A stretch of DNA of 62,856 nucleotides from Clostridiales bacterium (GTDB lineage: Bacteria > Bacillota > Clostridia > Lachnospirales > Lachnospiraceae), in NCBI GenBank assembly GCA_020859995.1, contig JAJBVE010000054.1, forward strand, positions 1-62,856, given 5' to 3'. Below, in pieces: positions 40,519-61,290 of this stretch (position 1 is the stretch's first letter; each line of letters opens with the position of its first letter). A model generated the notes under the pieces. That model worked only from the letters and a program-made list of their open reading frames with translations. It was not told the DNA's origin and searched no databases. The position numbers and the translations under genes are program-made.

Positions 40519-40519
40519 C

Positions 40520-42670
40520 ATGACCAGAGAGGAAAGACTGAAATACACGGCCAGCGCCAGGAAGCTTATCGAGAGTATGACCCTGGAGGAAAAAATCAGC
40601 CTGATGAGCGGTGATTCGTCCATACAGCAGGTCTCTGACGCGAAACTGGAAGGCTATCATTTTAATTATGCACCGTTTGAGGCTGGCGGTTGCGAAAAAT
40701 ACCAGATTCCTGCGCTGTGTTATTGTGACGGTCCGCGAGGTGTGGTCTGCGGCTATGGAGAAACGACATGCTTTCCGGTTCCAATCTTAAGGGGAGCATC
40801 TTTTGATGTGGAACTGGAGGAGGAAATTGGCCGGGCGATCGGCGAGGAGGTGCGGGCGGCCGGAGGCAATCTGTATGGGGGAATTTGTGTGAACCTCCCG
40901 TGGCACCCGGGCTGGGGACGCAGCCAGGAGGTCTACGGGGAAGACAGTTTTGCTCTGGGAGCCATGGGAGTGGCGGCAGTCCGGGGCGTCCAGGCTGCGG
41001 GCGTGATGGCCTGTGTCAAGCATTACGCATTCAATTCGATGGAAAACAGCCGCTTTCAGGTGAATGTTACCTGCCGGAAACGCACAGAACGAGAAGTTTT
41101 TCTCGCACATTTTAAGGAATGCGTGGATGCGGGGGCGGCAGTGGTGATGAGCGCCTATAACCAGTATCAGGGAGAACACTGCGGCCATTCAGAGTACCTG
41201 ATCCGTCAGGTGCTGAAGGAAGAGTGGGGCTTTGACGGAATTGTGATCAGTGATTTCTTCTGGGGCATTTTGGATACGGTCAAAGCTGCGAAAGCGGGGG
41301 TAGATGTGGAGATGTGCCACACCCGCTATTACGGTGAAAAACTTGCGGATGCGGTGCAAAAGGGCGAGGTGCCGGAAACTGTCGTAGATGAGGCTGCGCT
41401 GCGGATTGTGCGGACGATCCTGGCGTTTGAGGAAGAGAACAGCCTTATTCAGCACGAGGAAGTTGGAAGAGCCGTTCAGTGCAAAAAAGAGGTTAACACT
41501 GGCAATTTCGAAGGGACAGATCGCTTCGGACATCTTCGGACATGGAGAATGCAGGATTATGACCGCGCCAGCCACCGTGAGCTGGCTTTGAAATCAGCGC
41601 AGGAAGGGATTACTCTGATCAAAAATGAACATCAGATCCTTCCGCTGAAAAAGGATCTGCGGAAGATCGCCGTGATCGGAAGGCTTGCCTCTGCGGAAAA
41701 TACAGGGGACCATGGCTCATCGAGAGTTTATCCCGCCCATGTGGTCACACCTCTGGAAGGACTCGTAAAAGCAGTGCCTGATACAGAGGTGGCCTTTTAT
41801 GACGGGGATGATATGGAGCATATTAAACAGCTTGCCAAGGAATCGGACGCGGCAGTGTTTGTCGTTGGTCTGGATTTCAGGGACGAGGGAGAATATAATT
41901 CGCCGAAGACCGCAAGCATCTATGGGACAACGAGAGGCGGGGACCGTTCCTCGCTTAGTCTGCGTCCGGCTGATGTACAGGTGCTAAAGGAGACTGGAGC
42001 GGTAAATCCGGTATCTGTGGCCATTCTTATGGGAGGCGGAGCGATCACCGTATCCGAGTGGGAGCAGAACATTCCGGCGATTTTACATGCGTACTATCCG
42101 GGACAGGAGGGCGGTACAGCACTGGCGCAGATCCTGTTTGGTGAGGTAAATCCTTCCGGGAAACTGCCCTTTGTCCTTCCATACTCAGAAAACGATTTTC
42201 CAGAGATGAACTGGGAGGCGGACACTCAATACTATGGGTATTATCACGGCTACATGTATCTGGATCAAAAAAGGGTGAAACCCTACCGCTCTTACGGCTT
42301 TGGACTCAGTTACACTTCCTTTCAGCTGGATCGTGCTGTGTTTACGTGCGACGGAAAAAGGATCACTGCGTCTGTCGATATAGAAAACAGCGGCGCAGTT
42401 TCCGGGGCTGAGGTGATTCAACTCTATGTGGGCTGTCCGCATTCAGATGTGGAACGCCCGGCCAGAACCCTCTGCGGTTTCCAAAGAGTCACGCTTGCTG
42501 CGGGTCAGAAACAAAGAGTCTCTCTGTCCTGTCCGGTAGAAAAGCTTTCTTATTATAATGAAGAGACACAGAAATTTGAGCTGGAATATACGGACTACGA
42601 AGTGTACATCGGAACGTCCGAGGCGGAGGAAGATCTGCAAAAAGGAACGATCCGGCTTTGCCGAGATTGA
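40520..42670 (+). CDS. Glycoside hydrolase family 3, intracellular
   Basis: A GH3 beta-glycosidase of 716 residues. The TIM-like domain carries Asp245 in IVISDFFWG at the nucleophile position and the KH motif VKHYAFN. The second domain holds GITLIKNEHQILPL and the third is fibronectin-III-like (VSGAEVIQLYVG). No signal peptide is seen, so it would act on imported substrate. The usual nucleophile motif SDW is SDF here. The ATG at 40520 follows AGGA and comes one base after the AraC stop. The sugar specificity (glucoside, xyloside or other) cannot be read by eye. Confidence 0.92.
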   Translation: MTREERLKYTASARKLIESMTLEEKISLMSGDSSIQQVSDAKLEGYHFNYAPFEAGGCEKYQIPALCYCDGPRGVVCGYGETTCFPVPILRGASFDVELEEEIGRAIGEEVRAAGGNLYGGICVNLPWHPGWGRSQEVYGEDSFALGAMGVAAVRGVQAAGVMACVKHYAFNSMENSRFQVNVTCRKRTEREVFLAHFKECVDAGAAVVMSAYNQYQGEHCGHSEYLIRQVLKEEWGFDGIVISDFFWGILDTVKAAKAGVDVEMCHTRYYGEKLADAVQKGEVPETVVDEAALRIVRTILAFEEENSLIQHEEVGRAVQCKKEVNTGNFEGTDRFGHLRTWRMQDYDRASHRELALKSAQEGITLIKNEHQILPLKKDLRKIAVIGRLASAENTGDHGSSRVYPAHVVTPLEGLVKAVPDTEVAFYDGDDMEHIKQLAKESDAAVFVVGLDFRDEGEYNSPKTASIYGTTRGGDRSSLSLRPADVQVLKETGAVNPVSVAILMGGGAITVSEWEQNIPAILHAYYPGQEGGTALAQILFGEVNPSGKLPFVLPYSENDFPEMNWEADTQYYGYYHGYMYLDQKRVKPYRSYGFGLSYTSFQLDRAVFTCDGKRITASVDIENSGAVSGAEVIQLYVGCPHSDVERPARTLCGFQRVTLAAGQKQRVSLSCPVEKLSYYNEETQKFELEYTDYEVYIGTSEAEEDLQKGTIRLCRD

Positions 42671-42965: not shown

Positions 42966-43113
42966 CGGCCGCAAAAGGAATAATCTGGCTTTGCCGACGC
43001 AGCAAGTAGGGAAATTGCCCTGCCAAATTCATGATACAGAGTCATAGCAATGGGCACTCTGCTCGAAAAATAGCGGCTGCACAGCAAAAACAGGGCATTC
43101 TGTACAAAAAAGT

Positions 43114-43175
43114 CCGAAAATGAGAGCGAAATCTGCCGAACCTGACAACGGCGGAGAGAAAAAGAATGATATCCT
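43114..43175 (+). promoter_or_regulatory. Paired direct-repeat operator and promoter of the esterase gene (site 1)
   Basis: Half-sites CCGAAAATGA (43114-43123) and CCGAACCTGA (43136-43145) are 22 bp apart start to start. A TATCCT box (43170-43175) lies 34 bp after the start of the second half-site. The second half-site sits where a -35 box would be, as in class II activation by AraC-type proteins. Sites 2 and 3 have the same geometry. Confidence 0.75.
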
Positions 43176-43200
43176 TTCTACATAAAGGAGGGATATGAAC

Positions 43201-44847
43201 ATGCTGGCAGTTACAAATTACGGAGTAGTAAAGGGGGTCTTTGACGGTAATATGAAGCGTGCGTTGTTCGCGGGGATTCCCTATGCAAAGCCTCCGGTAG
43301 GAGAACTCCGGTTTCGGGCGCCGCAGCCGCCGGAATCGTGGACAGGCGTGCGAGATTGTACTTCTTTTGCTCCTGCGGCCATGCAGAAAAAGATTGTGGT
43401 GCCGCCTGGAAAACGCTGGCTGTGCTATGGGCAGGAAAATTTTATATCGGAAGAGACGCCGGTCAGTGAGGACTGTCTGTATCTGAATGTCTGGACGCCG
43501 ATGTATGCCCTGCGAACAGAGGGAAAAGGAAGCCCTGCAGCAAAGCTTCCGGTGCTGGTCATTTTTCACGGCGGCGGATTTACAACGGGAGCAGGATCTG
43601 TGCCGGTTCTGAATGGAGGCAATTTTACAGAGGAGGACGTGATAGTCGTAACGGTCAATTACCGCCTCGGTATCTTCGGATTCCTGACGCATCCGACGTT
43701 ATCAAAAGAAAACGACCAGGGCGTTTCCGGCAATTATGGGATACTGGATCAGATCATGGCTCTTCGCTGGGTACACAACAATATAGAAGCCTTTGGCGGA
43801 GATCCCGAGTGCGTGACGATTGCGGGGGAATCCGCAGGGGGCGGGTGCGTCAGCGTCCTGTATCAGTCTCCGTTGGCCAAGGGGCTGCTCCACCGGGCGT
43901 TTGCGCAGAGCGGTGCGCTCTTTGCCGGCATCAGTTCTCTGGTCGGATACCGTGAGGTGACGCTTGCGGGAAGGCAGGAGCAGGACAGCGTGTCTCTGGC
44001 GGCGATCGGCGTCACTACGGCAGAAGAATTAAGAAAACTGGATACGGAGACTTTAATGAAAATCCAGGGTGCCTGGGGACCGAACATTGACGGCTGGGTG
44101 CTGCCGGGAGATTACAGTGCGGTATTCGGGGCGCGCGCACAGAATGATGTTCCGCTGCTGCTCGGGAGCAATTCCGATGAGGGACTGATTTTTACGAATC
44201 CGCAGATTACAAAGGAAACGTTTACTGAGGAAATGCGGGTACGCTATGGGGATTGTGGAAAAACGTTGATGGATCTTTATCTTGAAGATGCCGCGAGTGC
44301 AGCACAGGCAGCAGCCTGGGAGTGCCGGGATCGCATGTTTGAGCACCATATGTATATCTGGGCGCGGATGCAGGCGGCTTGCGGATTGAGTCCGGTCTGG
44401 CTTTACTATTTTGACCGCCCGATACCGGATATTGGTTTCGGCGCGTTTCATTCCTCGGCTCTGCCATATTTTTATAAAAACCAGAAATATACGGATGTAT
44501 CCTGGGAAGAGACGGACCGGGAGCTTTCCGGGAAAATGTCCCGGTATCTGAAGAATTTTATTTATACTGGAAATCCGAACGAAAAAGCTTCCGATCTGCC
44601 GGTGTGGCAGCCATATGCTTCACCCTCGCCGGGCAGTATCCCACATGTTGCGCAGGATATTCCATTCGAAAAGCGAAATCGAATGGACGAATTCAGCCGC
44701 CGACCGAAAGAAGGAAGCATTTCCGTTTTCACAGACACAGATCAGGTCATGGAGCTGGGAGAACACTGCCAGATGATTCCAAAGCCGCACAAAAAGACAA
44801 TGGACACAATGACGGAAATCCTTGGAATTAACCCGAAACTTATATAG
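43201..44847 (+). CDS. Type B carboxylesterase, intracellular
   Basis: An alpha/beta hydrolase of the carboxylesterase type B (COesterase) family: FAGIPYAKPPVGELRFRAP near the N-terminus, EDCLYLNVWTP, the oxyanion hole HGGGF, and the nucleophile Ser211 in GESAGGG. No signal peptide is present. AGGAGGG eight bases upstream supports ATG 43201 over ATG 43195. It is controlled by operator site 1 and followed after 17 bases by operator site 2, so it is its own transcription unit. A role in removing acyl groups from imported glycosides is inferred from context. Confidence 0.9.
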   Translation: MLAVTNYGVVKGVFDGNMKRALFAGIPYAKPPVGELRFRAPQPPESWTGVRDCTSFAPAAMQKKIVVPPGKRWLCYGQENFISEETPVSEDCLYLNVWTPMYALRTEGKGSPAAKLPVLVIFHGGGFTTGAGSVPVLNGGNFTEEDVIVVTVNYRLGIFGFLTHPTLSKENDQGVSGNYGILDQIMALRWVHNNIEAFGGDPECVTIAGESAGGGCVSVLYQSPLAKGLLHRAFAQSGALFAGISSLVGYREVTLAGRQEQDSVSLAAIGVTTAEELRKLDTETLMKIQGAWGPNIDGWVLPGDYSAVFGARAQNDVPLLLGSNSDEGLIFTNPQITKETFTEEMRVRYGDCGKTLMDLYLEDAASAAQAAAWECRDRMFEHHMYIWARMQAACGLSPVWLYYFDRPIPDIGFGAFHSSALPYFYKNQKYTDVSWEETDRELSGKMSRYLKNFIYTGNPNEKASDLPVWQPYASPSPGSIPHVAQDIPFEKRNRMDEFSRRPKEGSISVFTDTDQVMELGEHCQMIPKPHKKTMDTMTEILGINPKLI

Positions 44848-44864
44848 CTTCCGCACAAAAAGAA

Positions 44865-44926
44865 CCGAAAATGATAGTGGATTTTGCGGAAAATGACAAC
44901 AATAAAAAGCGAAAACAAGCTATCCT
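44865..44926 (+). promoter_or_regulatory. Paired direct-repeat operator and promoter of the ABC operon (site 2)
   Basis: CCGAAAATGA (44865-44874) and CGGAAAATGA (44887-44896), 22 bp apart, with TATCCT at 44921-44926, 34 bp after the second half-site start. Identical geometry to sites 1 and 3. Confidence 0.75.
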
Positions 44927-44997
44927 TTATGTACAAAAAGAATAAACAGTTCCGTTACAGGAGCTGCGGAAAGAAAAAGAAAAGGAGGAACACCCGG

Positions 44998-46509
44998 ATG
45001 GAAAATAATGCGGAAGTGCTGCTGAGCTGTAAAAATCTCTGTAAGAACTTCGGTGCGACCAGAGCGCTGATCGACGTTGATTTTGAACTCCGGCGGGGCG
45101 AGGTGTGCGGCCTGATTGGTGAAAATGGATCCGGAAAATCTACGATGACATCCATTTTTGCCGGCGTACAGCCGCAGACGAGCGGCGAGCTTTTCTGCAA
45201 AGGCCAGCCGTACAAGCCGGGAAACATGGTGAACGCGCAGAGGCACGGAGTAGCAATGATCGTACAGGAAGCAGCGACCCTGCCGAGCATCGATGTGGCC
45301 AGCAACATTTTCATTGGCAACTATGCTTCCTTCAGCAAGGGCGGCTATCTGAATGTAAAGAAAATGCATTCCGAGGCGGACCGTATTCTGAAGGAAATCG
45401 GAGCGGACGATCTGAATGCGAATATGCCGCTCTCCCAGCTGAATTTCGAAGACCGGAAGATTGTAGAAATCGCTCGCGCCATGTATCTGCAGCCGGAGGT
45501 GCTGATCATTGATGAGTCCACGACGGCGCTGGCGCAGAAGGGCCGCCAGCTTTTGTATAAGCTGATTGACAAGATGCGCAGCGAGAATAAGGGAATTATT
45601 TTTATTTCGCACGATCTGGATGAGCTCGTGCAGGTCTGTAACAAAATCACCTGCCTGCGCGATGGCGTGATGGTCGGACATTTGACTGGGGATGAGATTA
45701 CTGTTGATAACATGCGTCCCCTGATGGTAGGCCGTGAGCTGACCGGCAGCTATTACCGCGACGACTGGGACGGCTCCTGCAGCGACGAGGTCGTGCTGGA
45801 TGTCCGGCATATCACCTCCGCAGACGGCTACATTAAGAACTTCAGCGTACAGCTTCATAAAGGAGAAATCCTGGGCTTCGGCGGCCTTGCAGGCTGCGGG
45901 ATGCATGAGGTCGGACGGATGATGTTCGGACTGGACGAAACCATCACCGGAGAGGTCGTGCATGTGCCATCCAACACAAAGATTGAGTCCGTCACGGATG
46001 CGGTGAAACAGAACATGGGGTATGTTTCGAAGGACCGTGACAATGAATCCATTATTTTGAACGCCAGCATTCAGAGCAACACGGTCATGGCGTCCTACAA
46101 GAAACTGACAAAGGGCCTGTTTGTTTCCCCGAAGGATGAAAAGGAGCTTTCCGACGCGCAGATCAAAGCCATGAGTACCAAATGTGTCTCCGGCAAGCAG
46201 TTCTGCAGTCAGCTCTCCGGCGGCAACAAACAGAAGGTGGCCTTTTCCAAGTGGCTGGCGGCCGGCAGCGAGGTGTACATCATGGACTGCCCGACACGAG
46301 GCATTGATATTGGCGTCAAGGCCGCCATGTATCAGATGATTTACCAGTTTAAAAAAGAAGGCAAGGCGATTGTGATGATCTCAGAGGAGCTGCCGGAGCT
46401 GATCGGCATGAGCGACCGGATGATCATCATGAGAGACGGACAACTGGCCAGCGAGATTATGCGCAGCAAGACGGTCAGCGATACACAGCTGATTGAGTAC
46501 ATGGTATAG
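44998..46509 (+). CDS. Sugar ABC transporter ATP-binding protein (double NBD, RbsA/MglA type)
   Basis: The 503-residue protein has two nucleotide-binding domains. The first has Walker A GENGSGKST (41-49), LSQLNFEDRKIVEIARAMYL and IDESTTAL. The second has the degenerate P-loop GFGGLAGCGMHEVG and the signature LSGGNKQKVAFSKWL with PTRGIDIG, as is normal for the carbohydrate uptake CUT2 class. GGAGGA before ATG 44998 fixes the start. It heads an operon with two permeases and two binding proteins. The ligand is unknown. Confidence 0.93.
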   Translation: MENNAEVLLSCKNLCKNFGATRALIDVDFELRRGEVCGLIGENGSGKSTMTSIFAGVQPQTSGELFCKGQPYKPGNMVNAQRHGVAMIVQEAATLPSIDVASNIFIGNYASFSKGGYLNVKKMHSEADRILKEIGADDLNANMPLSQLNFEDRKIVEIARAMYLQPEVLIIDESTTALAQKGRQLLYKLIDKMRSENKGIIFISHDLDELVQVCNKITCLRDGVMVGHLTGDEITVDNMRPLMVGRELTGSYYRDDWDGSCSDEVVLDVRHITSADGYIKNFSVQLHKGEILGFGGLAGCGMHEVGRMMFGLDETITGEVVHVPSNTKIESVTDAVKQNMGYVSKDRDNESIILNASIQSNTVMASYKKLTKGLFVSPKDEKELSDAQIKAMSTKCVSGKQFCSQLSGGNKQKVAFSKWLAAGSEVYIMDCPTRGIDIGVKAAMYQMIYQFKKEGKAIVMISEELPELIGMSDRMIIMRDGQLASEIMRSKTVSDTQLIEYMV

Positions 46510-46523
46510 AGGAGGGATTGAAC

Positions 46524-47528
46524 ATGCAGGAAAATGCAAATGTGAAGTCTGCGGCATCCCAGGGAGAGGACATCCAGAAAAAGCTGAATGAGGCAGAACT
46601 GCGCAAGGAGCGCCTGACGATGGTACTCCCCTATGCCGGAATTGTTTTTCTGGTAGTATTGTTTTCCGTTTTGACAAAAGGAAAATTCATCGGCGCGGAT
46701 AATCTCAGTCTGCTGTTAAATCAGTGTTATACCCTGGTGATTGTCATTATCGGAGCGACCTTCCTGTATTCTATGGGGGCGATGGATCTTTCACTCGGGC
46801 AGGTGATGGCTGTTTCATCGATGGTTTTGTCGCTGCTGTATCAGAGAAACGTGCCGTTGCTGGTCTGCTTTCTTGTCGCGGTGATTGTTGCAGTAGCCTT
46901 CATGAGCATCACAGCAACGGCAAAGAACTATTTGAAGCTGGATTCTTTCATTGCTTCTCTGTGTATTTCGAATGTAGCTTCCGGAATCGTGTCGGCAGTT
47001 TCCAAGAAGGGGAAAATCGTATTCCCGTACAGCAAGGCTCCCTGGTTAAACGGAGTCCCAGTCAAAGTGGTGGTATTGGTGGTACTGCTTGTTGTGGGAT
47101 ATCTGCTGTATAACTACACAGTCCTGGGCAAATCGGTCAAAGCAATCGGCGGGAGTATGACGGTAGCCAGAATCAGCGGCATCAAAGTGGAAAAAACGAT
47201 TTATCTGGTCTATCTGTTAATGGGCATTATGCTCGCGATCGCAGGAGTTTTCAATGTAGCGAGAGCAGGTGTGGTTGACCCGACAACAGGCAGCTCAATG
47301 AACCTGAATGTCATGGTAGGAATTGTGCTGGGAGGATTTCCGCTTTCCGGCGGTGCGAATTCTAAATTCAGCGCACCAATCATCGGCGCGTTGATGGTCA
47401 TTATCCTGACAAACGGGCTTGGAATGCTGGGGTACGCTTCGGCAGTGGGATATCTGTTCAAGGGAATCCTGTTTGTGATTGTCATTGCCCTTACATATGA
47501 AAAAACCAAAGGGAAACTGGTTGAGTAA
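46524..47528 (+). CDS. ABC transporter permease 1 (RbsC/BPD_transp_2 type)
   Basis: The 334-residue membrane protein has about eight to ten hydrophobic helices and the family segments YSMGAMDLSLGQVMAVSSMV and GIVLGGFPLSGGANSKFSAP. The N-terminal 30 residues are polar and probably cytoplasmic. GGAGGG seven bases upstream supports ATG 46524 over TTG 46518. With the second permease (48946) it could form a heterodimeric channel. Confidence 0.9.
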   Translation: MQENANVKSAASQGEDIQKKLNEAELRKERLTMVLPYAGIVFLVVLFSVLTKGKFIGADNLSLLLNQCYTLVIVIIGATFLYSMGAMDLSLGQVMAVSSMVLSLLYQRNVPLLVCFLVAVIVAVAFMSITATAKNYLKLDSFIASLCISNVASGIVSAVSKKGKIVFPYSKAPWLNGVPVKVVVLVVLLVVGYLLYNYTVLGKSVKAIGGSMTVARISGIKVEKTIYLVYLLMGIMLAIAGVFNVARAGVVDPTTGSSMNLNVMVGIVLGGFPLSGGANSKFSAPIIGALMVIILTNGLGMLGYASAVGYLFKGILFVIVIALTYEKTKGKLVE

Positions 47529-47565
47529 TTTTTATCACAATCGCATAGGGAAGAACAGCTTTTCA

Positions 47566-47588
47566 ACCTTGCGGCTGACGCAAAAGGT
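47566..47588 (+). promoter_or_regulatory. Intercistronic hairpin before binding protein 1
   Basis: ACCTTGCG and CGCAAAAGGT form a bulged stem around GCTGA. Similar hairpins occur at other junctions of this operon. Confidence 0.5.
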
Positions 47589-47656
47589 AACGGTGAATAT
47601 CGTATTTTGTAATATATGAGAAAAAAATATTTTTATATAAAAAGGAGACAAACATC

Positions 47657-48820
47657 ATGAAGAAAAGAACATTGGCATTGTTATTAGCGGCAACGACAGC
47701 GGTATCGATGACAGGAATGAATGTCAGCGCGGAGGAGAACTTAAGCGCGGATGGACTGGGCGGATACAAAATCGGGTTTTTCTATTATTCAACCGCCGAT
47801 ACGCTTTCCCAGCAGTTCCACAATACTCTGGATTACTGTGCAGAACTGACGAACTGTGAGATGGAATACTACGATATGACCTCATGGGATACCGAGTCTA
47901 TCAGTACGGCAGTCGAAACACTGGTATCCAATGGCTGTGACGGCGTCATCATGATTCTCGGATCTTCTCCGTCGTTGTATGAGTATCTGGAAGAAAATGA
48001 AGTGTATTATGTTGCTCAGACGCGTTCTTATACGGATGAGGTAGCATTGGTGACGGATGGTTCGGAATATAACTGCGGATTTGTCGGCGATCTGGGCGGG
48101 GAGTCCGGCGGAAACTATAAGTCCGGCTATGATATTACACAGGTGCTGGCTGATGAGGGATGCACGAGCATCGCGATCATCGGCGGAAGCGAAGGCGAGA
48201 CCATGAATGATGAGCGTGTGGAAGGCGCCAAAGCCGCAGCTGAGGCGAATGGAATGGAGGTCGTAGCGGAATACAGAGGCAGCGATTTCCTGACTGGTTC
48301 ATCGGATATCCTGGCAGCGTATGGGACGGACATTGATGGAATCGTAGTAACCGGCGGCGGTGAAAACGTGATGGCGTCGGTGCAGGCCGCAGGTCTGACT
48401 GGTCAGATCAAGGTAGTTGCTGTAGACGCAAGTGGTGATACGGAAGCTTATTTTGACGCAGGGATGCTGACTGCAACCTATGCCGGCGGCAGTACTTACA
48501 TGGTTAATTTCTATATGCAGCTGTTCAATGCACTTTCGGGAGCAGATCGTCTCTTTAGTGAGGAAGATCCCAGACTCGTACCGATGTTTCAGGGCTTTAT
48601 TGTAACAAGCGCAGAGGAATATGCCTCAGCGATCTCTTATACAGATGGTGAGTATTCCGGCGGTCTCCTTCCGGATGAAATCCTTTCCTTCTGTTCTCTG
48701 ACCGGCGGGGAAGAAATGACCGTGGAAGAGAGAGAAGCTCTTATTGAGAACTACATCAGTACAGATTATTGGAATCTTGCAGATATTATGGACCGTATTG
48801 ACAATTATACAGCTGAGTAA
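47657..48820 (+). CDS. Periplasmic-binding-protein-like sugar-binding protein 1
   Basis: A 387-residue type I (Peripla_BP_4-like) substrate-binding protein with an N-terminal signal peptide (KKRTLALLLAATTAVSMTG, cleavage after NVSA). No lipobox cysteine is present, unlike most Gram-positive binding proteins. The N-lobe begins GGYKIGFFYYSTAD. The mature protein is closely related to the second binding protein at 52425, with the first 120 residues nearly the same and the hinge and C-lobe loops more different. It lies between the two permease genes. Confidence 0.88.
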   Translation: MKKRTLALLLAATTAVSMTGMNVSAEENLSADGLGGYKIGFFYYSTADTLSQQFHNTLDYCAELTNCEMEYYDMTSWDTESISTAVETLVSNGCDGVIMILGSSPSLYEYLEENEVYYVAQTRSYTDEVALVTDGSEYNCGFVGDLGGESGGNYKSGYDITQVLADEGCTSIAIIGGSEGETMNDERVEGAKAAAEANGMEVVAEYRGSDFLTGSSDILAAYGTDIDGIVVTGGGENVMASVQAAGLTGQIKVVAVDASGDTEAYFDAGMLTATYAGGSTYMVNFYMQLFNALSGADRLFSEEDPRLVPMFQGFIVTSAEEYASAISYTDGEYSGGLLPDEILSFCSLTGGEEMTVEEREALIENYISTDYWNLADIMDRIDNYTAE

Positions 48821-48877
48821 TGGCAGCGTGAAAGTGGATTGTTATCCTTCATCATATCTTTTTGTGGGATGTGTTTG

Positions 48878-48911
48878 CTGGTTTTCATGCGGTATGACGC
48901 GTGAAAACCAG
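48878..48911 (+). promoter_or_regulatory. Intercistronic hairpin before permease 2
   Basis: CTGGTTTTCATGCG (48878-48891) and CGCGTGAAAACCAG (48898-48911) pair at 13 of 14 positions. It may stabilise or attenuate mRNA between the binding protein and the permease. Confidence 0.75.
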
Positions 48912-48945
48912 ACAACACCAGGCACATGAGAAAAGGAGAGCAAAT

Positions 48946-49941
48946 ATGAGTATAAAAGCAAAAATTATGAACTGGGTCAAGGCTTTGATCCTGCCCGTAG
49001 GTGTCTGGGCGATCTTTTCAATCATCACGGGCGGAAGATTCGCGACGACAACTGCGGTATTATCGGCACTACGAACCGCCGTTGTGCCGATTATCCTGGG
49101 CATGACGCTGGCATTCGGTATGCAGATGAACATGTGGAATTTTGCAGCAGGAGCAATCCTGTATGCCTGCGCAATCTTTGGAGCTTATTTCGCGGATCTT
49201 ACAGGCAGCGGAATTCCGGGGCTGTGTGTGTTTTCCATTCTGACCGGAGTGGTGCTCTGTGCGGCAATGGGGATCCTGTACCGGATTTTGCGGGTGCCGT
49301 GTCTGGTGTTGTCTCTGGGAATGGTGATGGTGATTGAGGCTCTGCCGAACATCTTCGTCCCGGGAGCGAATGGAAAGATCGGCCTGCTGGACGGCTACCT
49401 CGGAAGCTCCCCGTACTGCTATATCATTCTGGCTGTGATGTTCGCGATTTTTTATTTCATCAACAGCTGTACGACTCTGGGTGCGAATATGAGGGCGATC
49501 GGCGCGAATATCAAAATCGCTGACAGCGCAGGTATCGACATTGACCGGACAAAATTTATCTCTTTCCTGCTCTCAGGCGTTTTTCTGGGAGTGGCCGGAA
49601 TCGTCTATATGTCAGCAAATGTATCTGTCACAGCAGTGACGGGAATCGCTTCGGTATCGATTATCTTTGACGGAATCATGGGTGTATTCCTTGCGCTGGT
49701 GCTGTCGAGATGGATTAATTTCAGCGCGTCTGTTCTGATCGGAACCTTTACCATCCGCCTGCTGAGCTCCGGACTGGTAGCCTGCGGATTCAGCTCTGAG
49801 GTACGCGGAATCCTGACCGGCGTATTCCTGTTTGCGGTTATTACATTTTCCGCGAACGCGAATGTTCCGCAGCAGATGCGGGAGAAGAAGAGAATCGCTG
49901 CAGAAGCGGATATGGAATTTTCCTCTGCAAAGCAGGGATGA
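48946..49941 (+). CDS. ABC transporter permease 2 (RbsC/BPD_transp_2 type)
   Basis: The 331-residue polytopic protein has the segments LRTAVVPIILGMTLAFGMQM and MRAIGANIKIADSAGIDIDR, typical of sugar permeases of the RbsC group. It is shorter at the N-terminus than permease 1 and clearly diverged from it. GGAGAG supports ATG 48946; the frame is open to GTG 48901. Confidence 0.9.
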   Translation: MSIKAKIMNWVKALILPVGVWAIFSIITGGRFATTTAVLSALRTAVVPIILGMTLAFGMQMNMWNFAAGAILYACAIFGAYFADLTGSGIPGLCVFSILTGVVLCAAMGILYRILRVPCLVLSLGMVMVIEALPNIFVPGANGKIGLLDGYLGSSPYCYIILAVMFAIFYFINSCTTLGANMRAIGANIKIADSAGIDIDRTKFISFLLSGVFLGVAGIVYMSANVSVTAVTGIASVSIIFDGIMGVFLALVLSRWINFSASVLIGTFTIRLLSSGLVACGFSSEVRGILTGVFLFAVITFSANANVPQQMREKKRIAAEADMEFSSAKQG

Positions 49942-49971
49942 ATGCATCGTTTGAATCATTAGCAGTGACCC

Positions 49972-50016
49972 TTTCGCAAAAGGTGTTATCTGAGAAAGGC
50001 AGCTCCTTTTGCGAAA
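49972..50016 (+). promoter_or_regulatory. Perfect 12-bp intercistronic inverted repeat
   Basis: TTTCGCAAAAGG (49972-49983) and CCTTTTGCGAAA (50005-50016) are perfect inverted copies between permease 2 and the GH3 gene. Confidence 0.8.
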
Positions 50017-50037
50017 TTTGGGTTAAGGGAGGATTAT

Positions 50038-52389
50038 ATGGCGACGAAATTAACGGATGCGGCTTCCATTGAAGAAATAATAAAGGAAATGACAGTGAAA
50101 GAGAAAGCGGCCTGCATTACGGGGGGAAGTTCCTTTTGCACCAGAGCCATGGAAAAATATGGAATTCCCAGTCTGCTCCTTTTGGATGGGGGGACCGGCT
50201 ACAATACAAATCAGTATTACCTGGATCTGACCTATCAGGAATATGCGAAGCGCCGTGAAGAGGAAGGAAATCCGATTGATGAAGAAACCTGCATCGGACG
50301 CATGGGCGGGCTGGAGATTGTCTTAAGTGATCCCGATCTGTGGGAGCTCCGGCACAAACATGCCCGGGAAGCGATGGGCGATAACCGGGAATATGGCTGC
50401 TATCCGCCGGGGATCCTCTTTGGAGCTACCTGGAATCCGGAGGTGATTGAAGCCTGCGGGCACGCCCTCGGAGAGGAGACCAATGCGCGCGGCGTGGATG
50501 TCCTTCTGGGGACGCCGAACGTCAACATTCACCGGGATCCGAGAAACGGCCGTCTGTTTGAGGGCTATTCGGAGGATCCATGTCTGGTGTCAAAGCTGGC
50601 GCCGTTCTTTGTAAAGGGTGTGCAGGACGAGGGCGTTCTCGCGGATGTCAAGCATTTCGCGGCGAACAACCAGGAGACAGACCGCATGGGTGTCAATGAG
50701 CATATCCCGGAGCGTGCATTGAGAGAAATCTATCTGCCGGGATTTCAGGCCTGTGTGGATGCCGGCTGCAAAACCGTGATGTCTGCTTACAATAAAATCA
50801 ACGGCGTCCCCTGCGCACAGAATCGCTGGCTGCTGCATGACGTTCTGCGCGGCGAGTGGGGGTTTGACGGTTTTGTCATGACTGACTGGTCGGCTGCCTA
50901 TGATCAGGTGGAAGCCTGTGCGGCAGGAAATGATCTGGTCATGCCGGGACCGAGACAGATGGGGACGATCATTCGTGCAGTGGAGGAGGGCACCCTTCCG
51001 GAGGAGGCTCTGGATGAATGTGTGCGGAATTTCCTCCGCGGAGTCCTGGAATCACCCACGATGAAAGGCAGAAAGACAGAGTTTGATATTCAGGAGGGAA
51101 TCGCCGCGGCCTACAACGCAGCTAAGGAAGGAATCGTTCTTTTGAAAAATGATGGAATCCTGCCGCTTTCGAAGGACGCAAGACCGGCCTTTTTCGGCAG
51201 GCGCAGCCGGGAAATGCTTGCTTCCGGGGCTGGAAGTGCCGCGGTGAATACCTCACTGAATACAAATGTATATGACTGTGTCGCCGAAGCATTGGGAGCA
51301 GATCAGGTCAGCTTTGGCGAGATCCGGGAAGATACGACGGTTGTGATCGTGACGGTGAGCGCGAACGGGCAGGAGGGCGCAGACCGTCCCGATATGCTCA
51401 TGGAGCCGGAGGACCGCGCGGTGCTTGACGCAGCCATGGCTCAGGCGGAGGCGAAAGAAATTCCGGTAATTGTGCTTCTGAATGTCGCCGCTCCGGTTCA
51501 GGTCGTGGACTGGGAGCAAAAGACATCGGCAATCCTGTGCATGTTTATACCGGGCATGCAGGGAGGAGCAGCAGCGGCGGACATCCTGCTTGGAAAAGTA
51601 AATCCGTCCGGAAAGCTGCCGCTGACCTTCCCGAAGGAATACCGTGACTGTCCGACCTATGGGAATTTCCCGGGCTACGACAGCGAGGTGTGGTACGGCG
51701 AAGGCATCTATGTGGGCTACCGCTACTATGAGAAAAAGGGTGTCGAGGTCATGTACCCGTTTGGGTATGGTCTCTCCTACACAACCTTTGCAATCACCGG
51801 AGCGGATGTGCCGTCTCAGGTCAATGTGGATGAAGGGGACGTGACGGTTGCTGTCAAGGTGAAAAATACCGGAGCAATGGCGGGCTCTGAGGTCGTCCAG
51901 CTTTACATTCATGATGTGGAAAGTACACTGGAGAAGCCGTATAAAGAGCTGAAGGCGTTTCAGAAGGTCTATCTGGAGCCTGGCGAAGAAAAGGAAATTC
52001 ATCTGGTTTTGACCAAAAAGGACTTTGCCAGCTACGATTGCCGCCTGAGCAAATGGGCGGCGGAGCCGGGAGAATTCCGGCTTCTGATCGGAAATTCTTC
52101 CGCGAATATCACCCATAGCCTGACCTTGAATGTCGTCTGCGAAAATCCGTACAGCATCGGGCCGCAGACAGATATCGTGAAGGTGGTATCTAATCCGAGA
52201 GCGCAGGAAATTGCGGAAGAGGTAGCCGGAGTCAAATTACATGAAGTGGCAGGAAGCTATATCGTGTTCCAGCCGCTGACAACCTTTTCACAGATCTGGA
52301 AGGAGTGTGTGCTTCCCGCTATCCATGTAGATGAGGAAACCTCACAGTCCATGCTGGATAAAATTTACAGTGCGTGGAGTGCTCTGTAA
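50038..52389 (+). CDS. Glycoside hydrolase family 3, intracellular, second
   Basis: A GH3 beta-glycosidase of 783 residues with Asp283 in VMTDWS at the nucleophile position, VKHFAANNQE in the catalytic domain, the alpha/beta sandwich domain with KEGIVLLKNDGILPL, and a fibronectin-III-like domain (YPFGYGLSYTTF, then GSEVVQLYIHD). The C-terminal 90 residues extend beyond the usual end. No signal peptide is seen. GGGAGGA before the ATG is a strong ribosome site. It is only distantly similar to the GH3 at 40520, so the pair may act on different linkages. Confidence 0.93.
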   Translation: MATKLTDAASIEEIIKEMTVKEKAACITGGSSFCTRAMEKYGIPSLLLLDGGTGYNTNQYYLDLTYQEYAKRREEEGNPIDEETCIGRMGGLEIVLSDPDLWELRHKHAREAMGDNREYGCYPPGILFGATWNPEVIEACGHALGEETNARGVDVLLGTPNVNIHRDPRNGRLFEGYSEDPCLVSKLAPFFVKGVQDEGVLADVKHFAANNQETDRMGVNEHIPERALREIYLPGFQACVDAGCKTVMSAYNKINGVPCAQNRWLLHDVLRGEWGFDGFVMTDWSAAYDQVEACAAGNDLVMPGPRQMGTIIRAVEEGTLPEEALDECVRNFLRGVLESPTMKGRKTEFDIQEGIAAAYNAAKEGIVLLKNDGILPLSKDARPAFFGRRSREMLASGAGSAAVNTSLNTNVYDCVAEALGADQVSFGEIREDTTVVIVTVSANGQEGADRPDMLMEPEDRAVLDAAMAQAEAKEIPVIVLLNVAAPVQVVDWEQKTSAILCMFIPGMQGGAAAADILLGKVNPSGKLPLTFPKEYRDCPTYGNFPGYDSEVWYGEGIYVGYRYYEKKGVEVMYPFGYGLSYTTFAITGADVPSQVNVDEGDVTVAVKVKNTGAMAGSEVVQLYIHDVESTLEKPYKELKAFQKVYLEPGEEKEIHLVLTKKDFASYDCRLSKWAAEPGEFRLLIGNSSANITHSLTLNVVCENPYSIGPQTDIVKVVSNPRAQEIAEEVAGVKLHEVAGSYIVFQPLTTFSQIWKECVLPAIHVDEETSQSMLDKIYSAWSAL

Positions 52390-52424
52390 GGGAACCAAAA
52401 AAACAAATAAGGAGGATATCGAAA

Positions 52425-53609
52425 ATGAAAAAAGCCTGGTCAGTAATTTTGGCGGCGACAATGATGGCAGCAGCAGTGGCGGCTCCGGTAAGTGCAGAGG
52501 AAGGCAGCGCGGAAGTGCTGACAGCCGGAGAAAACTTAAGTGCAGATGGTCTTGGAGGATATAAAATTGGTTTCTTTTATTATTCCACGGCCGATGCACA
52601 GTCTTTGCAGTTCCATAATGTACTGGATTACTGCGCAGAACTGACAAATTGCGAAATGGAATACTACGACATGACCGCATGGGATACTGAGGCGATCAGT
52701 ACCGCAGTGGAAACACTGGTTTCCAATGGCTGTGACGGAATTATCATGATTCTGGGCTCTTCTCCATCCCTTTATGAATACATGGAAGAGAATGGCGTCT
52801 ATTATGTACTGCAGACACGTTCTTACACCGATGAGGTGGCTCTTGTCGTGGATGGATCGGAATACAATTGCGGCATTGTAGGAGATCTGGGTGGCACAGA
52901 TGGAGCGAATTATAAGGGAGGCTACGATAGTACCCTGGTGCTCGCGGACGAGGGATGTGAAAACATCGCGATCATCGCCAACAGCGAGGGCGAGACTATG
53001 AGTGATGAAATGGTGGAAGGTGCTGAGGCTGCTGCGGCAGATACTGGAATGAATATCGCGGCAGAATACAGGGGCAGCGATATTGGAACAGGCGCGTCTG
53101 ATATTCTCGCGTCCTATGGCACTGAGATTGATGGAATTGTTTACTGTGGGTCTGGCGATTATGTTCTCGCAGCTATTCAGTCCGCTGGTTTGAGCGGTCA
53201 GATCGCGCTGGTGCAGGGAGAATGCAGCGATGCTGCAGAGTATTTTGAAGCCGGACTGCTGACGGCTACCACCGCAGGAGCAAGCGTGTACATGGTTGAT
53301 CTGTATATGCAGGTATTTAATGGATTATGTGGAGCTGACCGGCTTTTCTGTGAAGAAGATCCGAGACTGGTTCCTCTGTTCAGCAGCTTTCTGGTAACAT
53401 CAGCTGAGGAATACGAAGCTGCTTCTATTTACACAGATGGAGAGGTTCCGGGAGGCATTCTGCCGGATGAAATCTTATCCTTCTGCTCCCTTACCGGCGG
53501 CGATATGACCATAGAAGAGAGAGAAGCACTGGTGGAAACCTATCAGAGCACGGATTACTGGAACATCTCAGATATTACAGCCCGCGTAGGAAGTTATCTG
53601 GGTGAGTAA
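52425..53609 (+). CDS. Periplasmic-binding-protein-like sugar-binding protein 2
   Basis: A 394-residue paralogue of the protein at 47657. The signal peptide (KKAWSVILAATMMAAAVAAP, cleavage after VSA) again lacks a lipobox. The mature protein starts with a short linker and ENLSADGLGGYKIGFFYYST, nearly identical to binding protein 1, while hinge and C-lobe segments differ (VYCGSGDYVL here, VVTGGGENVM there). GGAGGA before ATG 52425 fixes the start. It shares the ABC operon but follows the GH3 gene. Confidence 0.88.
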   Translation: MKKAWSVILAATMMAAAVAAPVSAEEGSAEVLTAGENLSADGLGGYKIGFFYYSTADAQSLQFHNVLDYCAELTNCEMEYYDMTAWDTEAISTAVETLVSNGCDGIIMILGSSPSLYEYMEENGVYYVLQTRSYTDEVALVVDGSEYNCGIVGDLGGTDGANYKGGYDSTLVLADEGCENIAIIANSEGETMSDEMVEGAEAAAADTGMNIAAEYRGSDIGTGASDILASYGTEIDGIVYCGSGDYVLAAIQSAGLSGQIALVQGECSDAAEYFEAGLLTATTAGASVYMVDLYMQVFNGLCGADRLFCEEDPRLVPLFSSFLVTSAEEYEAASIYTDGEVPGGILPDEILSFCSLTGGDMTIEEREALVETYQSTDYWNISDITARVGSYLGE

Positions 53610-53667
53610 ATCAATGTACTGCGGCACCCGGCTGTCAGGATATCAGATGTAAGGTGAAACTAACAGG

Positions 53668-53731
53668 GTATGAGGCGGAAAAAACGCCTCATACTGAATC
53701 CGGTGAGCAGGAGGCGGACTGTCTCCTGCTC
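53668..53731 (+). promoter_or_regulatory. Two intercistronic hairpins before the tannase gene
   Basis: GTATGAGGCG/CGCCTCATAC (53668-53677 with 53685-53694) and GAGCAGGAG/CTCCTGCTC (53705-53713 with 53723-53731) are perfect stems. Neither is followed by a T tract, so they look like processing or attenuation structures rather than strong terminators. Confidence 0.75.
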
Positions 53732-53778
53732 GACTTCAATAATGCAGCAAAAGACAGTACTGAGAGGAGGATCATAAA

Positions 53779-55326
53779 ATGCTGAAAAAATGTGCAAAAA
53801 TGCTGGAATTACCGCTGGAAATCCCGGCGGAGCAAATCGGTCTGCCGACAAACGGCGCGACAGTCACTGCCTGTATGTTATTTCACGAAGGTGAGCCGGA
53901 TCCGTCTCCGTTTGGAGCGGCCTATCACCTTTCATTTACTGCGGATGTATACCGGTACGAGGGTGTGATCCATCCGGTTGATCCGGAGGCGCCGGACATT
54001 CATTTTGAAGCCGGGATGCCCCTTTCCTGGAATGGAAAAATCATGCAGATGGGCGGCGGCGGAGTCAATGGCTATGTGCCGCCGTGCACGATGCCGCCGC
54101 ACGGCCAGGATCGTACCGATCATTCAGCATTAAAACAAGGGTATGTGGTCTTTGCCAGCGACAGTGGACACACATTTATTAATGGCGATATGATGGACTG
54201 CAGCTGGGCATTGAACCGGGAGTGCTTTGAGAATTTTGCACATCAGTCTCTGAAAAAGGTAAAGGATACGGCAGCGGTTCTGACGGAGCTGGTATATGGG
54301 GAAAAACCGGAGAAGGTCTATTTTTACGGGGGCTCGAATGGCGGGCGCGAGTGTATGAAAGCTATACAGAATTATCCGGAGGACTATGATGGGGCGATCT
54401 GCTTTTTCCCGGTGCTGTACTGGGTGCAGAAGGTTCTTTCGGACATCCGCTGCAACAGAGTGGCGGCAAAGATTGGTGAGACAGGCTGGATTGATCCGGA
54501 GACGGATGCCCGGATTCAGGAAGCGGTACTGGGACTTTGCGATGAGCTGGATGGTGTCAAGGATGGCCTGATTTCCAATTCATCCGCGGCCAGACAAAAG
54601 CATGAAGAACTGAAAGCAGCGGTCAGAAAGGTCGTCTCAGAGGAGCAGTTCCAGATCCTTGAGGCGTTCGAGGAGCCTTATGTCATGCCGTATCCGCTTG
54701 AGTATGGGCAGCCGGTATTTCCAGGGTATTCGGTGTTCGAGGGGACTTCCCTTCTGATCCCGCTTGCCATGCAGAAGCAGGCCATGGAGATCGGAAGATC
54801 GACCGGGAGCGACAGCGTCTTCCAGAGCTTCTTCGCGCAGGATCCGAATTATAAGTTAGATGATGATTCCTTCGATCCGGAGAAGTGGAAGGATCGTATT
54901 CAGGAGCTCTCAAAATGGCTGGACGCCTATGATACTAACCTTGACGCGTTTATACAGAGAGGCGGAAAGCTGATCCTGATACAGGGGACCACCGATCCGC
55001 AGGTGACCATGTACGGCACCATTCAGTATTATGAGAACCTGCTGGAGAAATATGGACAGGAGGATCTGAGGAAGTTTATGAGGTTTTACCTGGCTCCGGG
55101 CTATGGCCATGGAACCGACGGCAGCTTTATCATCATGTCGGATTTCCTGCATGCGCTGGATACCTGGGTGGAAGAAGGAACGGCTCCGGGCACCCTGACC
55201 GTGAAGGACCGCAATCCGCAGACAGCCGGAAGAACGAGGCCGTTGTATGAATATCCGGGGTATCCGGTATACAGCGGGAGCAGAGATCCAGATGATGCGC
55301 AGAATTATCGGGAAGGAAAAATGTAA
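53779..55326 (+). CDS. Tannase/feruloyl esterase family protein, intracellular
   Basis: A 515-residue alpha/beta hydrolase of the tannase/feruloyl esterase family, enzymes that release phenolic acids such as gallate or ferulate from sugar esters. Ser186 lies in the nucleophile elbow FYGGSNGGRE, preceded by FASDSGH. LDAFIQRGGKLILIQGTTDP and YLAPGYGHGTDG supply the acid and histidine region. There is no signal peptide, whereas many tannases are secreted. AGAGGAGG precedes the ATG. It is the last gene of the ABC operon. Confidence 0.87.
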   Translation: MLKKCAKMLELPLEIPAEQIGLPTNGATVTACMLFHEGEPDPSPFGAAYHLSFTADVYRYEGVIHPVDPEAPDIHFEAGMPLSWNGKIMQMGGGGVNGYVPPCTMPPHGQDRTDHSALKQGYVVFASDSGHTFINGDMMDCSWALNRECFENFAHQSLKKVKDTAAVLTELVYGEKPEKVYFYGGSNGGRECMKAIQNYPEDYDGAICFFPVLYWVQKVLSDIRCNRVAAKIGETGWIDPETDARIQEAVLGLCDELDGVKDGLISNSSAARQKHEELKAAVRKVVSEEQFQILEAFEEPYVMPYPLEYGQPVFPGYSVFEGTSLLIPLAMQKQAMEIGRSTGSDSVFQSFFAQDPNYKLDDDSFDPEKWKDRIQELSKWLDAYDTNLDAFIQRGGKLILIQGTTDPQVTMYGTIQYYENLLEKYGQEDLRKFMRFYLAPGYGHGTDGSFIIMSDFLHALDTWVEEGTAPGTLTVKDRNPQTAGRTRPLYEYPGYPVYSGSRDPDDAQNYREGKM

Positions 55327-55530
55327 TTCTGCTGCCAGGGTTGCTTCCCTGCATTTATTTCCGCGAAGCAACGATCCAGGTAGCCGGAGCCATAAGGACA
55401 CTTGTTAAGTGCCGAACGAAGCGAAGCGTAGAACCATCGGCAAGCCGGTCCCCTTGTGGCATAGCTTGCACGGATATTTGATTCCTATGAGGGATAGAGC
55501 AGAGTTTTAAATGGGATATAGAGCGAAGAC

Positions 55531-55610
55531 GGATAGGGGAGTAGTACGCTCCCCTATCCGATTGCACGGGGCATAACCCGGCGAGAAAATTTTGCAGCTT
55601 AAGCTGGCTC
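55531..55610. repeat. Palindromic repeat cluster after the tannase gene
   Basis: GGATAGGGGAG (55531-55541)/CTCCCCTATCC (55549-55559) is followed by CATAACCCGGCGAG (55572-55585), both also found at 10 kb, and a GCAGCTTAAGCTGG stem. The hairpin may terminate transcription between the convergent genes. 55327-55530 shows no gene. Confidence 0.8.
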
Positions 55611-56837
55611 TTAGAACGCCTGACACGCTGCCATGTGGTCAATCAGGTTAATGTGCCGGATGCCATTGCGTTTTTGCAGCATATAATCAGTCGTCCCTAC
55701 ATATTTGGTATAATTGTCCCGGATTTCTTCAAGAGGACGGTATTCCCGATCCTCTGTTTCCTGGCTGAGCAGGATTGTATAGGCCACCTGCATATAGGAA
55801 TAGTCTCCGGCAGGGCTCCGGAAAATGAAATCGCACTCCAGCTTGCCGATTCGTCCCACGCTGATGGCGTAATCCAGACTGCGGGCATAAAAATAGACAA
55901 TATTTTCCAGAACAGGGCCGTAGTTGATTCGGTTGTCTGTGTTCCGGGAGAAATACAGGCTCAGATCGGCCAGATAATACTTTTTCGCGCCGGACAGGGA
56001 TTTTTTGGACTTCATGTCAAAGCGATTGCATTCATAAAGAATTTTAGCATCCACCAGGGCCTGGACATATCTGGATACCGTGGCTCTGGTGATTCTGATT
56101 CCGTTTTTCCCTAACGCTTCGGTCAGACTTTTGATGCTGGTGGTTGCACCGAAATTGTTGATGAGATAATCTCTTACTGCATCAAATGCTGCGATGTCCT
56201 TTACTTTTACACGTCTCCGGATGTCTTTCTCAAAAATTTCCTGAATGATTCCTGCAACATAGGTTTGTCTTGCCTGGTCATCGTCAATGGTAACTGTTCT
56301 GGGAAAACCTCCGTTCAGAATATAGCGGTTGAATTCCACGGTCGGGTTTGAATCTACGGGTTTCTGATAAAACTGCTTAAACTGCAGGTATTCATCATAA
56401 CTCAATGTGAACAGTTCAAATTCCAGATAGCGTCCGGTAAGTTTGGTAATCAGTTCGCCGCTGAGCAAGTAAGAATTGGAACCGGTAATGAAAATGGAAA
56501 ATCCGCCGTCCGTGCGGAAGGCATTGACTACTTCTTCGAATCCAGTCACATTTTGTACTTCATCAATGAACAGGTAATTGCAGGCATTGTTTTTGACGCA
56601 GCTTTCAATGAGTGTTTCCAGTTGATCAGCAGTTTTGATTTTCCTGTATTTCCGACTGTCAAGATCAAGATAAATAATATTGTCCGGGTGAACTCCGCGA
56701 TCCAGCAACTCCGCCGCAACGGTCTGCATTAGGCTGGACTTCCCGCATCGGCGAATACCGGTAATTACCTTGATGATATCCTCGGCATCATAAAAGGGCC
56801 GGATTTTTTTCAGATACTTTTCACGTTTGAACAGCAT
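55611..56837 (-). CDS. AAA_14/DUF4143 ATP-binding protein
   Basis: The 408-residue protein has the P-loop ITGIRRCGKSSLMQT, Walker B NYLFIDEVQN and the sensor-like FITGSNSYLLSGEL. A winged-helix segment and the C-terminal DUF4143 nuclease-like region (LENIVYFYARSLDYAISVGR, then LECDFIF) follow. The family is common in gut anaerobes and its function is unknown. It lies antisense between two parts of the putative regulon and is probably unrelated to it. Its promoter overlaps a 29-bp perfect inverted repeat. Confidence 0.88.
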   Translation of the reverse strand: MLFKREKYLKKIRPFYDAEDIIKVITGIRRCGKSSLMQTVAAELLDRGVHPDNIIYLDLDSRKYRKIKTADQLETLIESCVKNNACNYLFIDEVQNVTGFEEVVNAFRTDGGFSIFITGSNSYLLSGELITKLTGRYLEFELFTLSYDEYLQFKQFYQKPVDSNPTVEFNRYILNGGFPRTVTIDDDQARQTYVAGIIQEIFEKDIRRRVKVKDIAAFDAVRDYLINNFGATTSIKSLTEALGKNGIRITRATVSRYVQALVDAKILYECNRFDMKSKKSLSGAKKYYLADLSLYFSRNTDNRINYGPVLENIVYFYARSLDYAISVGRIGKLECDFIFRSPAGDYSYMQVAYTILLSQETEDREYRPLEEIRDNYTKYVGTTDYMLQKRNGIRHINLIDHMAACQAF

Positions 56838-56870
56838 TTTTCATGACGCTCCCCTCTGATTGCTGTTCCC

Positions 56871-56956
56871 AGTATACTCTTATTTAATGAAAAGAGCAAG
56901 TTATCGAATCACTTTTTTGCTAATTAAAAAAAAGTGATTCGATAACTTGCTCTTTT
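56871..56956 (-). promoter_or_regulatory. Promoter and 29-bp perfect inverted repeat of the AAA_14 gene
   Basis: On the minus strand TTGCTC (56899-56894), a 17-base spacer and TATACT (56876-56871) form a promoter. The -35 box lies inside the left arm (56890-56918) of a perfect 29-bp inverted repeat whose right arm is 56928-56956, with a 9-base loop. This could be an operator, an element end or an attenuator. The gap 56957-57117 shows nothing else. Confidence 0.8.
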
Positions 56957-57117
56957 CGCATATTTCATTGGCCTTATCCTGTGGAATTTATCATGTGGCA
57001 GGCGGCTTTTCTTGCACGTGCTGGATGCTATAATTTGCTCAACAGATAATCGATGAGTATCCCACGGAAAGAAAGGGCTATGACACTGAAAAAATCGGAT
57101 ATTTTGAATAAAAATGT

Positions 57118-57179
57118 CCGGGAATGAGAAGGAATATTGTCGAAACTGACAACAATGAAAAAACTTCCCATGCTATTCT
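57118..57179 (+). promoter_or_regulatory. Paired direct-repeat operator and promoter of the Fe-S flavoprotein operon (site 3)
   Basis: CCGGGAATGA (57118-57127) and TCGAAACTGA (57140-57149), 22 bp apart, with TATTCT at 57174-57179, 34 bp after the second half-site start. The geometry matches sites 1 and 2, which are 12-14 kb away. It places the transcript start near 57186, downstream of the ATG at 57124. Confidence 0.7.
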
Positions 57180-59940: not shown

Positions 59941-60058
59941 TTCCGGAAGAGGGAAAGTGGCTCCAGGAGAGCAATTTCAGGAGTGAAAAAGCGAAAGAAT
60001 CCAATGAGTAAGTTTCTTAACCTCATTGATTCTTTTCACAGAAAGGCAGATTACAGAC

Positions 60059-60403: not shown

Positions 60404-60438
60404 AGAATGGCAGTTTGAGAAGAGGAGGAAGAGATCCT

Positions 60439-61122: not shown

Positions 61123-61149
61123 TTATGTGGAATTAGTTAAAGGAAGGGA

Positions 61150-61290
61150 AAAATCTCGCACAAAGTGTGGGAAGCCTGCATTCACAATCGGAGATTGTGG
61201 ACATACCACGCCCTACAATCGAAGAGTGGTGGCATAACCCGGCGAGGGTTTAGCGAACCTCCATCAGGACTTCAACTGCCTGGCTCGCTG
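61150..61290. repeat. Palindromic repeat cluster after hypB
   Basis: CACAATC-GGA-GATTGTG (61183-61199) is followed by CATAACCCGGCGAG (61233-61246), the same pair of modules as at 9964-9997. The stretch 61123-61323 contains no gene. Confidence 0.8.

Follow-up and report, generated by a model that had tools for sequence, protein, structure and literature searches.

The window analyzed here is the whole of contig JAJBVE010000054.1, 62,856 nt in length, from assembly GCA_020859995.1 of a Clostridiales bacterium in the family Lachnospiraceae. Three pairs of direct repeats in this window, each set at the same distance before a -10-like hexamer, lie upstream of a carboxylesterase gene, an ABC importer operon, and an Fe-S flavoprotein-hypAB operon. 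From comparison of sequences we are quite confident that these repeats are the operators of a single one-component activator of the AraC family, for which the 39559 product is the likeliest candidate. One nearby AraC-type regulator very probably switches on an entire cluster of genes for the use of plant compounds. Control of this kind is well known; what is new is this particular regulon and its operator, and a literature search limited to open-access papers recognized no description of either. To our knowledge, few AraC regulators have been characterized in Lachnospiraceae, and the reading given here would provide one of them with a concrete regulon and a defined operator.

Operator A (43112..43149, + strand) is composed of 16-bp direct half-sites starting at 43112 and 43134, operator B (44863..44900, +) of half-sites starting at 44863 and 44885, and operator C (57116..57153, +) of half-sites starting at 57116 and 57138. 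Read directly from the DNA, the half-sites carry CCGAAAATGA at 43114 and CCGAACCTGA at 43136 in A, CCGAAAATGA at 44865 and CGGAAAATGA at 44887 in B, and CCGGGAATGA at 57118 and TCGAAACTGA at 57140 in C. The hexamers TATCCT (43170), TATCCT (44921), and TATTCT (57174) each begin 34 bp past the start of the second half-site. The original prediction had described three direct-repeat pairs, all 22 bp apart and followed at 34 bp by TATCCT or TATTCT, which proved correct to the base, and the gene calls agree with the carboxylesterase, ABC importer, and Fe-S flavoprotein-hypAB units that it placed downstream. The 10-bp half-sites it proposed are in the right positions but too short, the half-site being really about 16 bp long (GTCCGAAAATGAGAGC / TGCCGAACCTGACAAC). 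Spacers and linkers vary among A, B, and C; the half-sites and distances are constant. Eight sites were compared, comprising three ortholog pairs from the window and a sister species (G313) and two sites from a different genus (G385), or five if each pair is counted once. TGACAAC is unchanged in the downstream half-site copy of all eight. The period is 22 in every one, the searches that found the G313 and G385 sites having fixed that value; when periods of 19-25 were left free, with a matrix from the window and G385 sites, 22 ranked first in the window, G313, and G385.

The putative activator (39559..40518, +) is a 319-aa AraC-family protein with an N-terminal cupin/AraC-binding domain and a C-terminal helix-turn-helix (HTH). 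The earlier assignment of an AraC gene to this position is borne out by Pfam: the AraC/XylS HTH is present above gathering scores (PF12833, 1.9e-17; PF00165, 4.1e-09), as is the N-terminal ligand-binding/dimerization domain (PF02311, AraC_binding, 3.7e-05, 23.9 bits with a cut-off of 21.1). Cupin_2 reaches 25.6 bits, below its cut-off of 27.2.

If transcription is taken to begin 7 nt past the hexamer, the half-sites lie at -70 to -55 and -48 to -33, centered at -51.5. None of the three window promoters has a TTGACA-like -35 hexamer 16-18 bp from its -10; the proximal half-site does contain CTGACA or ATGACA, at a distance of 22 bp from the -10. The predicted -10 elements of A (43170..43175, +; TATCCT after TGA) and C (57174..57179, +; TATTCT after TGC) are of the extended type, and that of B (44921..44926, +) is TATCCT after AGC. 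TATCCT matches TATAAT at four of six positions. All eight hexamers share the initial T, the A, and the final T, seven have T as their third base, and G stands at -14 in all eight sites, as part of TGN in six. The promoters appear to have the features of class II activation, namely paired direct half-sites about two helical turns apart that reach -35, a poor -35, and a usable -10. An AraC activator would bind the two 16-bp direct half-sites, two helical turns apart and centered near -51.5, with the proximal half-site reaching the -35 position, and since there is no -35 hexamer at 16-18 bp, RNA polymerase would need the bound activator. Binding of an inducer, probably a sugar or glycoside, by the cupin domain would turn on all three units at once: the esterase, the ABC importer-GH3-tannase genes, and the Fe-S flavoprotein-hypAB genes.

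Similar arrangements have been described in other bacteria. In the excerpted text of PMC7408454, the I1-I2 half-sites of E. coli araBAD are direct repeats centered at -52.5 that overlap the -35 region; the window likewise has two direct half-sites near -52 (-51.5, from a predicted start) reaching the -35 region, but its half-site sequence differs and its operators serve three operons of one cluster. PecR, PecR2, and HemR of Caldicellulosiruptor bescii, as presented in an excerpt of PMC8579813, are AraC proteins that locally regulate carbohydrate clusters, their tandem-repeat sites lying upstream of promoters. The window resembles these systems in being from a Firmicute and in having a local AraC, a carbohydrate cluster, and tandem repeats upstream of the promoter, and differs in substrates and targets, the comparison being one of arrangement. 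CdhR and GbdR of Pseudomonas aeruginosa are also AraC-family activators acting on direct repeats of a catabolic operon, although the portion of PMC5806209 concerned describes them as class I, binding further upstream, with a glutamine-amidotransferase-like sensor domain. AraC can repress besides activating (PMC7408454, same excerpt), and the repeats might be repressor operators or an element acting at the RNA level. We consider this very improbable, as the sites lie upstream of the -10, neither over it nor in the predicted leader, and the AraC-family sites upstream of promoters in C. bescii were interpreted as activator sites in the excerpt of PMC8579813. A known RNA family was sought within 39000-62856 and rejected, there being no Rfam match at gathering score in that interval.

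The operators are specific within the source genome (4,401,041 bases in 239 contigs). A 36-bp pattern built from the window sites, CCGRRAATGA-N13-SGAAMMTGACAAC, was found there at three or fewer mismatches in exactly three places, all with 0 mismatches and each upstream of a same-strand gene. The reversed control pattern gave 0 matches in this genome at the same tolerance, and shuffles of the window gave a mean of 0.02. A second pattern, of different construction and extended to the -10, again found only three places at two or fewer mismatches. This pattern was chosen after all eight sites were known, and because both patterns derive from these very sites, what carries information is the lack of any other near match in the genome. 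The many random genomic matches against which the original prediction had cautioned are ruled out by both scans, neither of which returned a further match. A fourth site in the window, ahead of araC or of the first GH3 or tannase gene, was considered and rejected, the next-best scores of 14.8 and lower falling within the null (nulls here and below were simulated with a first-order Markov model, 40 to 100 times for each locus).

Beyond this genome, no other of the 298 in the family scan (299 with our own) matched the 36-bp pattern at better than two mismatches, and the pattern including the -10 has 3, 3, and 2 perfect places in our genome, G313, and G385. A public contig collection, which may omit our own or very near genomes, yielded three matches in the Lachnospiraceae metagenome-assembled genome MI.9_6 (JAJQEO010000037.1), at the same site positions as in G313, plus single matches in two other metagenome-assembled genomes, one from Bacteroidaceae and one alphaproteobacterial; by our own estimate about two chance matches are expected. 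A plasmid search with the AraC protein returned 377 records, all under 60% identity.

Among 47 genomes of the genus, our own included, only our genome and G313 encode the Fe-S flavoprotein (at 1e-100) along with a full-length AraC ortholog. The G313 AraC is 94% identical, and its three sites stand at 0, 1, and 1 mismatches. The other 45 genomes have no full-length AraC ortholog and no operator place better than three mismatches. Some weaker AraC-family match is found in 24 of them, as expected because the family is large, and 13 have between them 14 places at three mismatches, which we take as chance. One of the 24, G310, has a 51-residue AraC fragment that is 82% identical. There (L076, 14601-15483) the araC fragment, corresponding to window 39572-39739, abuts sequence matching window 62119-62856, with a 16-base overlap, and the window DNA between these two segments, about 22.4 kb, contains the remainder of araC and all three operators. 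The junction is likely a deletion scar that set the 5' fragment of araC against the far end of the third operon. It is consistent with joint loss of regulator and operators and does not constitute an independent operator test.

When the window is aligned with G313, the match upstream of A and C is poor up to about 30 bp ahead of the first half-site and strong from there down to the -10. Substitutions number 3/96 in the half-sites, 3/18 in the 6-bp spacers, 13/60 in the linkers from operator to -10, and 1/18 in the -10 hexamers; half-sites (3/96) differ from spacers plus linkers (16/78) with a Fisher p of 3.5e-4. The half-sites are evidently under constraint between the species. This bears on whether the three promoters are copies of one duplicated segment without common regulation, a possibility raised by TGACAACAATRAAAAA, which B and C have in common and which covers the operator end and the DNA directly behind it. 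Duplication of this kind is most improbable, since the spacers and linkers differ among A, B, and C, yet the half-sites and distances are kept, the half-sites are constrained between species, and a like geometry stands before different genes in other genera.

AraC matches at 1e-25 or better were found in 8 of 397 family genomes, our own included, G385 being the closest at 65% identity. The G385 locus retains the araC-GH3 pair together with the carboxylesterase, the ABC importer, and the second GH3; the 30 kb read there showed neither a flavoprotein nor a tannase ortholog. Two sites occur there, 3 and 6 mismatches from the window pattern, and the 6-mismatch level alone means little because five other places in the locus also match. 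One site precedes the ABC ATPase, in the position of window site B, and the other precedes an AraC-family gene followed by the carboxylesterase, near window A. With a matrix from the window and G313 only, these sites rank first and second with scores of 40.7 and 22.3, the third place scoring 8.6, and the largest maximum among 100 simulated G385 loci was 20.3. It is only under this matrix that G385 is independent, because the other half-site matrix, used for the distant loci, the periods, and the cassette scans, was trained with the two G385 sites included. TATAGT and TACACT follow TGACA by 22 bp in G385, the same distance as in the window, and the sites were not selected by their -10. In a scan with the half-site pair and the -10 (the latter scored with a generic matrix), a third G385 place, before araC, scored 21.4, a value reached by 0/40 simulations. 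The three genomes found with an AraC of at least 65% identity (our own, G313, and G385) carry 3, 3, and 2 sites, and in the genomes searched operator presence follows the 39559-type AraC. On the conservation check that the original prediction proposed, the sites are kept in G313 and G385, the two genomes found to retain the AraC and the main genes.

Outside the genus, GH3 adjoins araC in all eight of the relatives' loci read (G385, G170, G254, G124, G069, G398, G367, and G671). Six relatives with AraC proteins 26-37% identical were scanned with the half-site pair and -10, allowing one base of slack in period and distance. The best site exceeded all 40 simulations in G170, where it is upstream of araC-GH3 with a -10 distance one base shorter; in G069 and G398, where in each case a GH43-MFS sugar transporter pair follows at about 110 bp, the period being 21 in G069; and in G367, where it lies between GH3 and araC. 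In the order comparison (392 genomes drawn, our own included), an AraC match at 1e-45 was found in three: our own, G254, and G671. The last, from another family and with an AraC 39% identical, was taken after the scoring had been fixed, and its best site scored 29.6, with a null maximum of 22.2 in 60 simulations and 10.7 for the next place in the locus. This site is about 150 bp before the aligned araC start, and its -10, TGATATAGT, is one base further away than in the window. Of the seven distant loci (AraC 26-39%), five are positive, one marginal, and one negative; across 46 other loci (146 kb) used as a comparison the maximum score was 19.1. When periods of 12-40 were tried, 22 was best in G385, G398, and G367, 21 was best in G069, and 22 was second in G124; the best period in G170 was 21, but by score at a different place from its site. 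There is a hint that the operator may belong to the whole GH3-linked AraC subfamily, and it could aid the annotation of GH3-linked AraC regulons in related genomes. The chances are about even that the whole subfamily, across two or more families of the order, shares a single operator-promoter cassette, with half-sites like GTCCNAAAATGANAN, a period of 22 plus or minus one, and a -10 at near-fixed distance. Such a cassette would stay readable down to regulators about 26-39% identical, even as the genes under its control change; here it would also have been placed before the Fe-S flavoprotein-HypAB module, linking a redox/nickel module with the use of plant glycosides and esters.

Several observations count against the regulon as we propose it. 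Regulator and targets are linked within 18 kb, and because of this linkage co-occurrence cannot tell the 39559 AraC from another protein of the same island. The B promoter has only the G of the extended -10, without a full TGN, and at C, TATACT (57181) and TATAAT (57186) lie directly downstream of TATTCT and could serve instead, which makes the C start the least certain. The 36-bp pattern matches 60 of the 298 other family genomes at 2-3 mismatches (64 places, versus about 20 for the reversed control); the excess could reflect composition or weak relatives. With the pattern that includes the -10, one of nine other genomes, G015, has a 2-mismatch place although it is without this AraC, and G385 has a third, unlinked place at two mismatches. 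Among the distant loci, G124 is marginal, 2/40 simulations reaching its best site (which precedes an ORF, or open reading frame, that by appearance may be the same GH43), and G254 has no site above the null, its best score of 11.2 being reached by 34/40 simulations and neither 21 nor 22 being among its top three periods. One of the G385 sites is immediately followed by a second AraC-family gene, and in our genome the 39559 protein has two other AraC-type matches at E <= 1e-10, with 35 candidates at a first look; both facts would suit an AraC-family protein encoded elsewhere as the one that binds the sites. Such a regulator seems unlikely, given that close operator matches go with the 39559-type AraC in the genomes searched, that the window sites are within 18 kb of 39559, that sites of like geometry adjoin most of its distant homologs, and that 39559 is the sole AraC-type gene among the window proteins scanned. 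The 39559 AraC is most likely the regulator, as the best-supported candidate rather than a proven one.

The genes concerned are all on the + strand. The GH3 glycosidase partner of araC (40496..42670) was assigned from NCBIfam GH3 families and tblastn neighborhoods. Behind operator A is the carboxylesterase (43195..44847; PF00135), whose true start, judged from the sequence and the G313 alignment, is probably the ATG at 43201, behind AAGGAGG. The predicted operon behind B (44998..55326) would run from the ABC ATPase (44998) through a permease (46518), a binding protein (47657), a second permease (48901), GH3 (50038), and a second binding protein (52374) to a member of the tannase/feruloyl esterase family (53779). 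The tannase is preceded by a 170-bp gap and is presumed to belong to this operon, and pattern and matrix scans found no operator before it. The importer is of the sugar type with two binding proteins, and we take it to be CUT2. The predicted operon behind C (57295..62145) would consist of an Fe-S flavoprotein with a GltD/NfnA-type FAD domain (57295-59940), hypA (60026), hypB (60325), and a gene for a metallo-beta-lactamase-fold protein (61324). The esterase, ABC importer, GH3, and tannase genes look like one cluster for plant glycoside and ester use, and the gene set suggests use of acylated or aromatic plant glycosides, which we presume to be the substrates. The three-operon regulon of the original prediction is supported, but its view that genes not obviously related are included mostly does not hold, only the Fe-S flavoprotein-hypAB genes being surprising. 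The regulon is local and mostly coherent, with this cassette as its odd member.

A homolog of the Fe-S flavoprotein at 1e-150 or better is present in 62 of 299 family genomes, our own included, and at nine other flavoprotein loci hypA is adjacent in 9/9 and hypB in 8/9. No operator scored above control level at any of these nine cassette loci of other genera (scores 9.9-15.6), each read over 5.2 to 5.6 kb with about 1.5 kb either side, so that a more distant promoter would be missed. Before an orthologous operon in another genus, the operator was found for B (the ABC ATPase of G385) and at none of the nine loci for C. Because all nine lack the site, the cassette was probably recruited into the regulon in this lineage. 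Its placement under the same predicted inducer as the esterase-importer-GH3-tannase cluster would offer a hint to its role.

Other differences from the sister species were seen around these genes. The two binding proteins (47657-48820 and 52374-53609) are paralogs: compared crosswise with the two copies in the sister species, each shows about 73% identity. In the sister species (L074) an extra metallo-beta-lactamase-fold ORF lies between the second binding protein and the tannase, which the window (53609-53779) lacks, and two inverted-repeat stretches in this region look conserved by eye. An AAA_14/DUF4143 ORF (55611-56837, - strand) lies between the tannase and operator C; as the sister species has none at that spot, it was apparently either inserted here or lost there. 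The window becomes homologous to the sister species only at 39534, 25 bp upstream of araC, and the left flank, with diol dehydratase, reactivase, and PduO genes, differs in the 7.4 kb of sister-species DNA that was read. A type I restriction-modification island at 17639-28929 comprises hsdM, three hsdS-like ORFs with an integrase among them, and hsdR; a search among its hsdS genes (21400-25400) found no inverted repeats of 20 bp or more.

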